Notes under the pieces: model-generated | What the model saw: the letters and a program-made list of their open reading frames with translations, nothing else | The model's database searches: none | What the model was told of the DNA's origin: nothing | NCBI GenBank assembly: GCA_017470425.1 | Contig: JAFUYT010000018.1 | Span: 1-51,575, forward strand | Source: Bacteroidaceae bacterium | Lineage (GTDB): Bacteria; Bacteroidota; Bacteroidia; Bacteroidales; Bacteroidaceae | Direction of reading: 5' to 3' | Length of the DNA stretch: 51,575 bases | Shown: positions 22,033-51,575 of the stretch, piece by piece | Layout: the number at the start of each line of letters is the position of its first letter | Numbering within the stretch: the stretch's first letter is position 1 | Position numbers and translations under genes: made by a program

Positions 22033-24828
22033 TTATCGTATCAGCACCTTCTTACCGTTGAGAATGTAGAGACCCTTCCGCGTCGGATGGGTGAGGCGTC
22101 GTCCGCTCAGGTCATAGTAATGAGCGGGAGAAGAGGCGTTGTGGGAAGACTGCGGGAGGATGGTCATGGGGGAGATGCCGTCGTAGAGCGGGTCGCTGTC
22201 AGCTGCATAGACATGAAGTGGGAAGGTGTGAGCATCTACCGTGTTCCAGTCTCCTTGTTCGCCGATGAGGCTCAGCGTGGCATCGATGTCGAAGTCACCT
22301 GCACTGGAAGGTGTCCATGCGCCTAAGGAACAGAACAGGAGGGTGCCCTGTCCGGGTTGCAGCTCCGGATGGCTGTTCACCAGCGCAGGGGGCGTGTCGA
22401 AGCTGGTGCCGAGAGCGGTCTGGGGACTGTCCGGGGTGCCGATGAGGAGTGCCCACAGGCCTGCGGGCGCAGTGCCTTGGTTCTTCACGTAGGCATAAAA
22501 GGTGACTTCGTCGCCCACGCGAGGGTAACGGGGCTGCGTGAAGAGTTGTGTGATGCGCAGGTCGGGGGCGGAGGGGAGTGTGCTCAGGTCCAGTGTGGTG
22601 GTGAGGGGGAGGTCGGCGGACGAACCGCCGACACTGAGTGTGAACGAGGTGGCGGGCACCTCATAGGCTTCGCGCTGGAGGTTCCACTCGTAGAAGTCCT
22701 CGGCGGAGAGTTGGAAGCGGACGGTGCGCGTCTGCCCGGCGGGGATGCTGATGCGCTCGAAGCCGCGCAGCTGCTGTAGTGGCTGCCAGGCGGGGGCCTC
22801 GTTCTGGTCTATGTAAAGCTGTGCTACCTCCTCGCCGTCGCGTGTGCCAGTGTTGGTGATGTCCGCGGTGATGGCATAGCTCATGCCGTCGGGTTGTGGC
22901 GTCACGGTGAGGTGGTCGTAGCGGAAGGTGGTGTAGCTGAGGCCGTAGCCGAAAGGGTACTGTGGCGTCATCCCTTGCCGTTCATACCAGCGGTAGCCGC
23001 CGCCCCAGTCATCGGTGAAGTAGGTGTCGTTCCACTCGGGCAGCTGGGCATCGTTCTGCGGCATCGTCATGGGCAGACGTCCTGCGGGGTTGCGGAGTCC
23101 GAAGAGGACGTCGGCGATGCCGTTGCCGGCTTCCTGGCCGCTGTAGAAGGAATAGACGAGGGCGGGGATGTCGTCGATGCAGTCGGCCAGCGAGACGATG
23201 CCACCGCTCTGCAGGACGACAATCAGGTGGCTGTTGGCTGCTGCGAGGCGGCGGATGAGCTGCTGCTGGATAGCGGGCAGGGCGGTGCTCTCGCGGTCCT
23301 GCACCTGTACGCCGATGATGCTCTCGCCTTCGAGGGTCTTGTCCAGACCTCCCGCGAAGATGACATAGTCGGCGGCGCGCGCTGCTGCCTCGGCCTCGGC
23401 GAAGGCGGAGGTGTCATCGCCGCTGATGGGGCCGCCCTTGACATAAGTAGCAGATGGCACTACCGCACGGATGCCTGCAAGGAGGCTGACAGCATAGGCG
23501 GGCTGTGTCTCACTGCTTCCGAAGCAGTTGAGGTTCTCGCCTTCAGCATTGGGGCCGATGACGGCGAGCTTCAAAGCGGCGGACGAACCGCCGCTAACGG
23601 GGCGCAGGGAGGTGGAAGAGGGGGAAATGCCGGAGGGGAGGTCAGTGGGGGAGAGGGAAGTGCTTGGGAGGGCAGTGGAGGAGGAAGGGGCGGGGAGGGG
23701 GAGGAGGTTGCCGGTGTTGCGCAGGAGGACGACGGCTTTGCCGGCGGCTTCGCGGCAGAGAGCGCGGTGGGCGGCGTTATCGACAAGGGTCATGGGGTCG
23801 CTGGGAAGGGCGGGTTGCCAGTCGAGCAGACCCATGACGGACTTTGTCAGCAGGACACGGCTGGCGGCGGTGTCGAGGTTTGCCTCGGTGATGGTGCCGT
23901 TGGCGAGGGCGGTGGGCAGCTGTTGGCGGTAGTGCGTGGAACCCATGCAGACGTCGGTGCCGCCGAGAAGGGAAGAGGGACCATCCTGCACGCCGCCCCA
24001 ATCGGAGATGACGGTGAAGGGATAGCCCCAGCGTGTGCGCAGGATATCAGTGAGGAGGTGGCGGTTGGCGGCGACCTGTACGCCGTTCAGCAAGTTGTAG
24101 CTCGACATGAGGCTGAGCGGTACGCCCTCCTGCAGGGCGGTGCGGAAGTTGGTACCGAAGAAGCCCATGAGGTCGCGTTCGCTGATGATCTCATTGCAGG
24201 TTTTGCGATAGGCTTGCTTGCCCTCGATTTCGAAGTGCTTCAGGCATGCCATCACGGGCATCGTCTGGATGCCGCGCACAAGGTATGTGCCAATCTGGCC
24301 ACTTAGGTAGGGATCCTCGCCTGCGCTCTCGGCGGTGCGGCCGCCGCGCGGATCCAGACAGAGGTCGATGCAGGGTGCCAGCCCCACGTGTTGTCCGGCA
24401 GCCCAGAATTCCTCGCCCATAGCGTGGCCCAGGCGCAGGAGTAGGTCGCGGTCCCAGAGAGCAGCCATCGCGATGCCGGTGGGGAACGACGTGTAGCCCT
24501 CGCGGTGTACGCCATGCGGGCCGTCAGACATCAGCCATCCGGGGATGCCCAGCTCCTCGTCGTCAGCCATCGCGAAGAGCGTCTTGCCAGTGAGCTGCGC
24601 TATCTTCTGCGAGGGGGACATTAAACCTAAAATCGTCTGGATGCCATCAACGGACCCGCCCACTGAAGACCTTCCCCCTGAAGACCCTCCCCCCTGCCCC
24701 TCCCTTGTAGGGAGGGGGGTAGATACCTGTGCGAATGAGGGGACAAAGAGTATAACGAACAAGAAGATGAGAAATATTCTTAATAAGAAAGAATTATAGT
24801 ATGTGATAGTCTTCATATTCTTCTTCAT
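22033..24828 (-). CDS. Secreted GH3 family beta-glycosidase
   Basis: A 931-residue secreted enzyme: signal peptide (1 to about 34), GH3 N-domain, GH3 C-domain, fibronectin-III-like domain, a CARDB-like domain (LRITQLFTQPRYPRVGDEVTF...) and a C-terminal tail YDLSGRRL...GLYILNGKKVLIR. The nucleophile is Asp276 in VISDWGG; KHFEIEGK and RGGRTAESAGEDPYL mark the substrate pocket. It probably removes terminal beta-glucose or beta-xylose; specificity cannot be read. Residues 37-60 (STPLPTREGQGGGSSGGRSSVGG) are encoded by a G/C-rich repeat also found upstream of the gene, and a second Pro/Ser-rich low-complexity insertion lies near residues 385-410. Confidence 0.92.
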   Translation of the reverse strand: MKKNMKTITYYNSFLLRIFLIFLFVILFVPSFAQVSTPLPTREGQGGGSSGGRSSVGGSVDGIQTILGLMSPSQKIAQLTGKTLFAMADDEELGIPGWLMSDGPHGVHREGYTSFPTGIAMAALWDRDLLLRLGHAMGEEFWAAGQHVGLAPCIDLCLDPRGGRTAESAGEDPYLSGQIGTYLVRGIQTMPVMACLKHFEIEGKQAYRKTCNEIISERDLMGFFGTNFRTALQEGVPLSLMSSYNLLNGVQVAANRHLLTDILRTRWGYPFTVISDWGGVQDGPSSLLGGTDVCMGSTHYRQQLPTALANGTITEANLDTAASRVLLTKSVMGLLDWQPALPSDPMTLVDNAAHRALCREAAGKAVVLLRNTGNLLPLPAPSSSTALPSTSLSPTDLPSGISPSSTSLRPVSGGSSAALKLAVIGPNAEGENLNCFGSSETQPAYAVSLLAGIRAVVPSATYVKGGPISGDDTSAFAEAEAAARAADYVIFAGGLDKTLEGESIIGVQVQDRESTALPAIQQQLIRRLAAANSHLIVVLQSGGIVSLADCIDDIPALVYSFYSGQEAGNGIADVLFGLRNPAGRLPMTMPQNDAQLPEWNDTYFTDDWGGGYRWYERQGMTPQYPFGYGLSYTTFRYDHLTVTPQPDGMSYAITADITNTGTRDGEEVAQLYIDQNEAPAWQPLQQLRGFERISIPAGQTRTVRFQLSAEDFYEWNLQREAYEVPATSFTLSVGGSSADLPLTTTLDLSTLPSAPDLRITQLFTQPRYPRVGDEVTFYAYVKNQGTAPAGLWALLIGTPDSPQTALGTSFDTPPALVNSHPELQPGQGTLLFCSLGAWTPSSAGDFDIDATLSLIGEQGDWNTVDAHTFPLHVYAADSDPLYDGISPMTILPQSSHNASSPAHYYDLSGRRLTHPTRKGLYILNGKKVLIR
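24685..24722 (-). repeat. G/C palindromic repeat inside the GH3 gene
   Basis: Contains CTCCCTTGTAGGGAGG with a C/G-rich flank. It is the inverted copy of the repeat at 24875-24909 (about 30 identical bp) and encodes part of the linker after the signal peptide. Confidence 0.8.
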
Positions 24829-49292: not shown

Positions 49293-49402
49293 CTCCCTAT
49301 AGGGTCCTTCGCAGCCCTCTATAGAGACAGAGCTGACCCTCTATAAAGACTGTGATCACCCTCTATAGAGGGTTGCCAAGGTCTCTGTAGAATGGGGGAG
49401 AA
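49293..49402 (+). repeat. 22-bp tandem array 3 (5 units)
   Basis: Units start at 49293, 49315, 49337, 49359 and 49381. The core CCCTCTATAGAG is partly palindromic (CTCTATAGAG) in each. The sequence differs from arrays 1 and 2 but the 22-bp period is the same. Confidence 0.8.
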
Positions 49403-49460: not shown

Positions 49461-51182
49461 CTACCCGAGCAAGGACTTGTACCCGATAATCTTCATATCC
49501 TGTGCCCCGCAGATTTCCTGCACTAAGTCATTCAGATGATGAAAACGGGCATAGTCACTGATGGGGCTGCCGGCGCTGCCTACGGCATAACCGTTCACTT
49601 CGCCTTTTTGGCTGATCTCATCATCAAGCTGCCAAGGGGCGAGAATGAGGAGGTGACCGGTGGTACAGGCATAGAACCGCCGTTCCGATGGCTTCCAGTA
49701 GCATGTGATGGGTTCCTTCTGTAAGAGGATGAGAGGGAGTTGTGCATCAATGGCGGCATTGACAATGAGACTCTCGCCCTTGGAGATACCTGGCGTCACC
49801 AGCACCGTGCCCTCCTCGGCCATACGCAGGAGGCGGGCGCGTTCACGCACGAAGAAAGCAGTGAGGTGAGTGGGCATCTTCCGCGGAGCCGTTTTCAGAT
49901 GCTGTCGTTCCTTGTCCGTGAGCTGCCCAGAGGATAGGATAGCCTGCCGCTCAGCCTCATCGACCTCTGTATAGCGGTGGAAGAACACCTGCTCCTTCTC
50001 CGGGTTCTTCAGCAGGAAGAGGTTCCCGAACGCCGCATATTCCCGCCCGCCGATCCACAGGTGCAGCTGCCGTTGCATCAGCCGCGGACACTCTTCCCTG
50101 ATGCGGGCACGAAGCGGATTCTCCAGCATATAGCGCTTGATATTTTCGAGCATACCAGGGCGGTTCACGATGCGGTCATGGTAGCCAGAGGAGAAAAGGA
50201 GCGGGTAGCTCATCCAGTGCTGAGGGTATTTCTTAGAAAAGCGGTTGCGATGAGCAGAATTGTTCTTTTGATTGCCCGCGGGGGAATCCGCGGGCACGGT
50301 GGTCTGCATGTCCGCAGGCCGGGTGCCCTGTATGCCAGTAAGCCCGGTTGCCCGTATGTCCGCGGACCCTGTGCCCTGTATGCCAGTAAGCCCGGTTGCC
50401 CGTATGTCCGCGGGCCGGTTGCCCTGCTGCTTGCTGAGGACTTCAAGAATAGCTTTCTTCAATCCCTCGTCTATCTTACCAACTTCTCCCATCCTTCCCG
50501 CCACGTCTGCGATCCCTTTTTCCATCCCTCCCGCCACTTCTGCGATCCCTTTTTCCATCCCTCCTGCAATTTCTGCGATCCCTTTTCTCGCCTCTCCCGT
50601 CCCTTCTGCGTCCCTTTTTCCCGTTCCTCCTGCCACTTCTGCGGTTCCTTTTTCCATCCCTCCCGCCACTTCTGCAGTATCTTTATTCCCGTCCTCAGCC
50701 ATCGTGCCCGCGGATTCCCCCGCGGGTATCACCTCGTCGAGCAGCCTCCACCACGCCCGCGAGCAGCCGCTCTTGAAGCCGCTGACCACTTGCCCCAGAT
50801 GCTTTCCTTCTGGCAGCGCCTCCTTCACCCTCAATAGCAAGTGTATGTGGTCAGGCATCATCGCCACACGCCACACCTCCACCTGCGGGTACCTGTTGTT
50901 GATCTTCGGCACCTCCTCTTCCAATACCCGTCGTCCCAGTTCCGAAAGCACCATGTGTGGAGCCTCCAAATCATATACCCATGCAGCATGGTCCAGCCTC
51001 TTGGTCGCCATTGCACTTCCTTCGATATGTCCGAACACCCGCGCGCGTCCCTCCGTGACGATCGTCACCATATACGTCCCCACCTCCCGGTAGTCGTGTG
51101 CAAACGCCCGCCTGTGTCCGTTCGGCTTCACCTCCCGTCGCACCGCCCCGTGGTTGCTATAATGTGACTGTTCGTCCGTCAT
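49461..51182 (-). CDS. REP-associated tyrosine transposase (RAYT), with a repeat insertion and a C-terminal extension
   Basis: A 573-residue protein. N-terminal Y1/IS200-like core: YMVTIVTEGRARVFG, then the HUH motif MMPDHIHLLLRV (His112, His114). The candidate nucleophile Tyr334 lies in SSGYHDRIVNRPGMLENIKRYMLENPLRARI. The two are about 220 residues apart against roughly 60-70 in ordinary RAYTs; the excess (about 153-303) is translated from an inverted-repeat-bounded insertion of 11-residue (GMEKGIAEVAG) and 16-residue repeats. The C-terminal ~130 residues (LVTPGISKGESLIVNAAIDAQLPLILLQ...KPSERRFYACTTGHLLILAPW) form a Rossmann-like extension I have seen in Bacteroidetes RAYTs. The start is MTDEQSHYS; -7 TACTTTTG is at 51209-51216. 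Confidence 0.85.
   Translation of the reverse strand: MTDEQSHYSNHGAVRREVKPNGHRRAFAHDYREVGTYMVTIVTEGRARVFGHIEGSAMATKRLDHAAWVYDLEAPHMVLSELGRRVLEEEVPKINNRYPQVEVWRVAMMPDHIHLLLRVKEALPEGKHLGQVVSGFKSGCSRAWWRLLDEVIPAGESAGTMAEDGNKDTAEVAGGMEKGTAEVAGGTGKRDAEGTGEARKGIAEIAGGMEKGIAEVAGGMEKGIADVAGRMGEVGKIDEGLKKAILEVLSKQQGNRPADIRATGLTGIQGTGSADIRATGLTGIQGTRPADMQTTVPADSPAGNQKNNSAHRNRFSKKYPQHWMSYPLLFSSGYHDRIVNRPGMLENIKRYMLENPLRARIREECPRLMQRQLHLWIGGREYAAFGNLFLLKNPEKEQVFFHRYTEVDEAERQAILSSGQLTDKERQHLKTAPRKMPTHLTAFFVRERARLLRMAEEGTVLVTPGISKGESLIVNAAIDAQLPLILLQKEPITCYWKPSERRFYACTTGHLLILAPWQLDDEISQKGEVNGYAVGSAGSPISDYARFHHLNDLVQEICGAQDMKIIGYKSLLG
50323..50418 (-). repeat. 48-bp tandem repeat in the RAYT gene
   Basis: Two nearly identical 48-bp units, each starting GTGCCCTGTATGCCAG on the plus strand, encode the 16-residue repeat SADIRATGLTGIQGT. 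A half-unit follows. Confidence 0.88.
50489..50686 (-). repeat. 33-bp tandem repeat in the RAYT gene
   Basis: Six units of 33 bp, the clearest starting CCATCCCTCCCGCCACTTCT, encode 11-residue repeats such as GMEKGIAEVAG. Confidence 0.88.
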
Positions 51183-51575
51183 GACCAGTTCTTTTGATAA
51201 ATCCTCCGCAAAAGTACAATATAATCCCCTTCCCATCCTCCATTTGTATCAAGAACCTGTCTTCCCACCTCCCCATTTCCTTCTTTCTGCCAGCTTTGTC
51301 TTGATGACCTCGCGGTTATAGCTGGCAATGCTCTCGCTTTTCCCTCCCTGTGCAGCTGAACGCCGCCGGTGGCAGAAGCACATGGTACCGAAGTACAAGT
51401 CTGTATTAGTGCATGTGGGGAGAATTTGATTATGTCTGCAAATATAGATAAAATCTCCGAGCTTATAAGCCAGTCGAGATAAAAATGTGAACAAATTGCC
51501 CCGAAAAAAGAGATCAAGGCTCACATACGCTCTATTTTTATCCTTTTACGTGCTCTAAGTCACAAATCTTTTGTA
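51183..51575. other. Gene-free right end of the window
   Basis: It holds the RAYT leader and its -7 box (TACTTTTG on the minus strand, 51209-51216). Beyond that I see no convincing gene: a 91-codon minus-strand frame (51249-51524) has no recognisable family, a poor composition and no promoter of its own. It could be the decayed remains of something continuing past the edge. Confidence 0.5.

Follow-up and report, generated by a model that had tools for sequence, protein, structure and literature searches.

How does a transposase gene come to hold, in its own reading frame, the kind of element that its product should mobilise? The question is raised by a gene for a REP-associated tyrosine transposase (RAYT; REP, repetitive extragenic palindrome) in 51,575 nucleotides of DNA from a Bacteroidaceae bacterium (GenBank assembly GCA_017470425.1, contig JAFUYT010000018.1). 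This stretch, here called the window, is one entire contig of an assembly which is 72% complete and has 36 contigs. The RAYT gene is its last open reading frame (ORF; 49461..51236, minus strand). Between the half that carries the HUH motif and the half that carries the catalytic tyrosine lie 452 bp which begin and end with inverted repeats and contain tandem repeats. We read these 452 bp, with a probability of about 0.7, as an in-frame linker of the RAYT with a resident, inherited pair of inverted REPs (a REP doublet of the type called REPIN, or a bacterial interspersed mosaic element, BIME) and not as a fresh self-insertion. The hairpins are very probably of the kind recognised by this RAYT clade.

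The gene and its linker

Counted from its first ATG the gene encodes 591 residues, but translation may start later, at Met19. The HUH histidines are residues 130 and 132 (DHIH; 50841..50849, minus strand), and the tyrosine of the Y motif (YMLENP, in the context KRYMLENP) is Tyr369 (50130..50132, minus strand). None of the three varies across the 21 aligned sequences, nor does Tyr352 in GYHDR. The protein has the HUH motif and single catalytic tyrosine (H130, H132, Y369) of a RAYT, and a Y1 fold like that of the E. coli RAYT (4ER8). It matches NCBIfam NF047646 at E 2e-9, with a score (37.5 bits) under the curated cut-off of 80; the score is low because the model spans an undivided domain, whereas the domain of the window RAYT is divided. 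The same model matches 21 of 21 relatives at E 0.001 or better. The identification as a RAYT, already made in a preliminary description of this DNA, is borne out by this match together with the motifs and the fold, and is kept as a fold and motif assignment. That description numbered the histidines 112 and 114, which is correct only if translation starts at Met19 (the Y-motif tyrosine is then residue 351); its nucleophile, Tyr334, corresponds to Tyr352 and not to the tyrosine of the Y motif.

Repeat and ORF analysis places the linker at residues 171-321 (50274..50726, minus strand), between two inverted hairpins. Model confidence is low across most of it and just beyond, with pLDDT below 50 at residues 171-240, 249-254 and 268-337. 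The inverted repeats (50275-50302 and 50699-50726) are 28 nt long and 96% complementary, with a perfect 24 bp inside; by simple arithmetic, a perfect 24-bp inverted repeat within about 2 kb is far beyond chance. Each arm is itself a hairpin, CCCGCGG-N6-CCGCGGG. In gene sense the upstream REP-like hairpin reads CCCGCGG-GGGAAT-CCGCGGG-CACG (50699..50726, minus strand), and the downstream hairpin (50275..50302, minus strand) is an inverted copy whose GTG foot faces inwards. They score 37.0 and 38.5 bits respectively against R1, the covariance model described below, but both belong to the set from which R1 was built and these scores are not independent. Between them, repeat analysis finds a 33-bp tandem repeat in 5.7 copies, translated as GIAEVAGGMEK units (50489..50675, minus strand), and 2.5 copies of a 48-bp unit, a dimer of 24 bp (50308..50426, minus strand). 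The frame is open along the whole gene, hairpins and repeats included.

The preliminary picture of perfect 24-bp inverted repeats, forming REP-like hairpins around 452 bp of in-frame 33- and 48-bp repeats, is confirmed. The word "split", which it applied to the gene, is misleading: the frame is nowhere interrupted, and the same site holds a variable linker in relatives. Directly downstream of the gene there is also an intergenic tandem repeat (49315-49370) of CCCTCTATAGAG-type units, 22 bp long and in 2.5 copies.

Recurrence of the pair in related RAYTs and of similar hairpins in other genes

The linker found at this place in relatives ranges from 0 to 166 aa and is often repeat-rich (62 rows, 48 after repeats were removed); that of the window, 166 aa by the same measure, is long. 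Hairpin candidates were anchored on a loop of the form G-R-R-A-A/T-N with CAC at a set distance, base pairing not being required. Among the 27 RAYTs with at least 55% identity in the N-terminal half, an upstream candidate is present in 24 and a downstream one in 20, and at least five of the seven stem positions pair in 22 and 19 of these respectively. All but one of the 27 fall, with L085, in one supported clade (98/93). Covariance model R1 was built from 24 of 44 anchored hairpins, each with at least 6/7 pairs; duplicates and near-duplicates were excluded, as were hairpins with fewer than six pairs or a shifted foot (upstream in L020, L043, L045, L047 and L048; downstream in L023, L045 and L048). 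When applied to 36 RAYT loci, R1 finds an inverted pair inside the gene, feet facing inwards, in 21, and the polarity of the pair is the same in 21 of 21. Matches upstream of the matched RAYT region occur in 4/36 loci.

Loop and foot recur while the stems change. Internal stems include CCCGCGG, CCCAGCG, CTTGGCG, CCTGCCG, CCCTGTG, CCCGAGG and CCCAAGG. Two-sided changes are seen at five of the seven pairs, and the covariation score is 0.669, against 0.249 for shuffled and at most 0.236 for slid alignments; the number of cells, the pairing and the score exceed the shuffles, whereas the count of pairs with two-sided changes and the count of pair types do not. In more distant RAYTs the hairpin loops are different (GTCA, TCA and others). 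When up to one mismatch is allowed, 16 of the 61 genomes contain one such distant-type hairpin, TGTTGCGAC-NNN-GTCGCAACA, and every one of the 16 belongs to the group of 33 in which a RAYT match was found. Some occurrences of this hairpin sit within RAYT genes themselves, and its reversed control also matched, solely in the window's own genome.

Hairpins of the R1 type are also dispersed through the genomes. With the best 120 candidates per genome scored under strict filters, R1 gives 136 matches (E 0.1 or better), spread over 28 of the 61 genomes. The median number, internal matches left aside, is 5.5 in the 12 genomes with this RAYT type (11 from the anchored-hairpin survey, plus G040 at 54%), 1 in 21 genomes with other RAYTs and 0 in 28 with none. 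The RAYT is linked to dispersed REPs by this association, which has a counter-example in G018 and is uncorrected for kinship.

Seventy loci were fetched: 30 returned loci and 40 stretches chosen from the 136 matches, which are not a random sample. They contain 64 R1-type hairpins, eight of them in four RAYT loci. The other 56 have 21 different stems, and their arms pair at 0.94 compared with 0.63 after shuffling, these copies having been preselected for at least 6/7 pairs. In ORFs of at least 120 aa, translation gives VPxxSPxG for 33 of the 56 (a text pattern finds 34, of which one is discounted) and PxGExxGT for eight, some of these in overlapping ORFs; 15 lie elsewhere or are unclear. Known families account for 18 of the 20 ORFs scanned. 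The element lies within the matched domain in about 12 (RF3 in two genomes, GcvT, GcvP, PfkB, a TrpE-like protein and others) and between domains or at an edge in about six (an Mrp-like protein, MetH, UvrA and others). In RF3, two genomes have the palindrome at one and the same position within the GTPase domain (L153 and L171; G036 and G027). MetH-type genes hold it at two different places in two genomes (L181 and L165; G018 and the window's own genome), and a member of the Mu-type phage portal family in L187 (G055) also contains one in frame.

Acetate kinase (ackA) provides filled and empty sites. The gene was found in 37 of 41 genomes and read in 30 returned loci. An in-frame insert is present in three of these (G000, G018 and G019) and in none of the other 27; relative to L108, the inserts are 57, 36 and 24 nt long and lie in one loop. 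The loci with the in-frame palindrome are L003/L105 (the window's own genome, contig C15), L106 and L107. G000 has a paired CCCTCGG stem; that of G018 and G019, CCTTCGG, is paired too. The three inserts may share one ancestral insertion.

A lack of any further copies of the hairpin would have spoken against the preliminary description. Same-loop hairpins do occur elsewhere in the window's own genome: the hairpin core is found at three places with three mismatches (reversed control pattern, one), all inside ORFs, with the GGGAA loop kept in all and a fully compensated stem in two. When hairpins in this genome are found by loop and stem alone, CAC is present in 5/6. Other palindrome families are found in long open frames of the same genome (stretches L070-L084, and positions 22611 and 23574 of the window); these have fixed loops (ACGAA, GGAAA, TCT/TGT) and varying stems. 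An abundant separate palindrome, CTCCCCCC-GTG-GGGGGGAG, often forms inverted pairs about 60-70 bp apart and is open in frame in long ORFs, where it reads NSPRGGED...LPPTGG (for example L075 4195-4275, L071 6752-6841 and L080 17849-17931).

Probable inheritance and its alternatives

The pair is taken to be inherited because polarity, loop and general position are kept while the stems change by compensation. The preliminary description had offered three accounts, and an element carried within the gene is the one that the sequence supports: an in-frame inverted pair of REP-like hairpins lies between HUH and Tyr. If the pair is inherited with the gene, compensated changes would let its stems drift, and the DNA separating the hairpins would grow and shrink as tandem repeats. 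In a likely model, a single-strand HUH/Tyr enzyme would read hairpin shape, loop and GTG foot rather than the stem sequence. The RAYT would spread REPs, and the survivors would be those whose in-frame peptide, most often VPxxSPxG, does no harm in the loop or linker of the host protein that receives it. A hairpin pair inside the ORF would keep enzyme and substrate linked.

Several points weigh against this reading. The constancy of loop and foot is partly by construction, as CAC was used as an anchor, and the 24 hairpins behind the covariation test were chosen by hand for at least 6/7 pairs. Covariation is weak in the downstream hairpin alone, which has eight unique arm pairs and whose best shuffle equals the observed value. 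Among the 36 RAYT loci, four have hairpins of a single polarity and 11 have no R1 match. The exact 20-nt core has no match with fewer than three mismatches elsewhere in its own genome. In ackA, G000 has the GTG foot but G018 and G019 have GTT. R1 enrichment in the clade genomes (p = 0.0035 versus other RAYTs, 4e-6 versus none) is uncorrected for kinship; the most R1 matches (20) are in G018, an assembly about 80% complete in which no RAYT of the clade was detected, and five of the 28 genomes that lack a RAYT match carry R1 matches. Neither excision nor target duplication nor cleavage was seen in this sequence-based analysis.

The alternative that survives best, unlikely as we consider it, is that the linker is a tolerant landing site, filled by repeated REP insertion or by conversion from dispersed copies, with no selection for the pair. 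Dispersed same-loop hairpins in the same genomes are consistent with this, as is the fact that intragenic REPs are common, and the near-identity of the two arms in the window (24 nt) and in L048 (29 nt) is as expected after recent copying or conversion. Against it, polarity is the same in every pair, the upstream loop lies at an identical offset in 12 of 24 RAYTs and within 34-46 nt in 19 of 24, and the internal stems are mostly unlike the fetched dispersed stems of the compared genomes, with CCCGAGG (G027) and CCCAGCG (G029) as exceptions. Somewhat less probable again is a regulatory device, in which the RAYT binds its own mRNA or the single strand of its gene, or in which the structure sets how well the second half is translated. 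Structure conserved despite sequence change and a recurring intragenic place would suit such a device, but a RAYT-specific regulator has no need of the same hairpin type in many unrelated genes.

It is very improbable that the linker is an ordinary low-complexity one whose hairpins are chance products of GC-rich repeats. Linkers are repeat-rich and do differ in length and text between relatives, but inverted hairpins recur in them and their stems are compensated; by a rule based on the stem alone, a perfect hairpin of at least 7 bp is present in the linker of 53 of 64 RAYTs against 4.8 expected from codon shuffles, and hairpin density is 5.9 per kb in the linker against 0.36 per kb in the remaining gene. 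Least credible of all is a recent self-insertion that inactivated this copy; the preliminary description had named self-insertion and an inactivated enzyme as separate possibilities. Arms identical over 24 bp and a long linker would fit, but the frame is open, the HUH and Tyr residues are invariant, and most close relatives have, in the same linker, pairs that agree with this one in polarity, loop and foot.

About 200 residues follow the Y-motif tyrosine. Residues 387-577 (49506..50078, minus strand) are predicted to adopt a DprA/ShosA-like fold; a Pfam scan of this domain gave no family at E 1 or better. It is probably DprA-like, judging from the model, and the protein may be a hairpin-cutting HUH enzyme fused to a module of the single-stranded DNA-binding type. 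A tentative extension, possible but on balance doubtful, is that each RAYT gene of this clade is a self-contained REPtron: the substrate pair would be embedded and selectively kept in the ORF, the DprA-like module would be fused behind it, and an enzyme that reads hairpin shape, loop and GTG foot but is blind to the stem sequence would seed free-stem palindromes that diversify host proteins by adding peptides in frame.

Known systems and significance

The core of the finding is of a published kind, as in-frame REPs have been reported between HuH and Tyr in the RAYT genes called tnpA_REP (Quentin et al. 2018, PMC6006769) and in other genes (PMC3733652). In the sections of PMC6006769 consulted, subclass 2.4 is described as having in-frame REPs, usually between HuH and Y, and a variable, repeat-bearing domain; it occurs in Bacteroidetes among others. 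The window RAYT shares the in-frame REP at this place. It differs in its foot (GTG followed by the C of the stem, with CAC as our anchor, versus GT[AG]G), in its Y motif (YMLENP, or Y[ML]x[ED]NP in the alignment by eye, versus YIxNNP), in its HuH motif (DHIH versus NH[IFV]H) and in its extension after the tyrosine (versus none), and is therefore not filed in that subclass. The W position of the subclass 2.4 WQ motif seems to be LF in the alignment of these RAYTs. A conserved, covarying inverted pair is not described for subclass 2.4 in those sections.

The consulted part of PMC3733652 describes GTAG and CGTC REPs in frame within genes, uvrA among them, with loops typical of the family and complementary changes in the stems. 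The hairpins described here are likewise short palindromes in frame within genes, including uvrA, but have a GTG foot (with the same caveat about the anchor) and very free stems in place of the terminal GTAG or CGTC tetranucleotide. The RAYT genes in that account are flanked by REPs or long terminal inverted repeats, whereas here the pair is inside the gene. Rickettsia palindromic elements, as described there, are also in-frame palindromes in probably working genes; the same passages state no link to a RAYT. REPINs and BIMEs, as far as the cited parts of PMC3116915 and PMC6006769 go, are two inverted REPs associated with a RAYT; the present pair differs in lying within the ORF. A literature search found no conserved covarying inverted pair inside a RAYT ORF, no in-frame family with GTG foot and variable stem in Prevotella-like genomes, and no DprA-like C-terminal domain on a RAYT.

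If the internal pair is the substrate of the enzyme, each gene records what its RAYT recognises, and RAYT-REP pairing would become testable without guessing which repeat belongs to which enzyme. If the stems can vary freely while loop and foot stay fixed, recognition of shape could be told apart from recognition of sequence. The filled and empty ackA site, together with the in-frame elements in RF3, metH, gcvT and others, is a natural setting in which to test how these elements can spread and leave the host viable.
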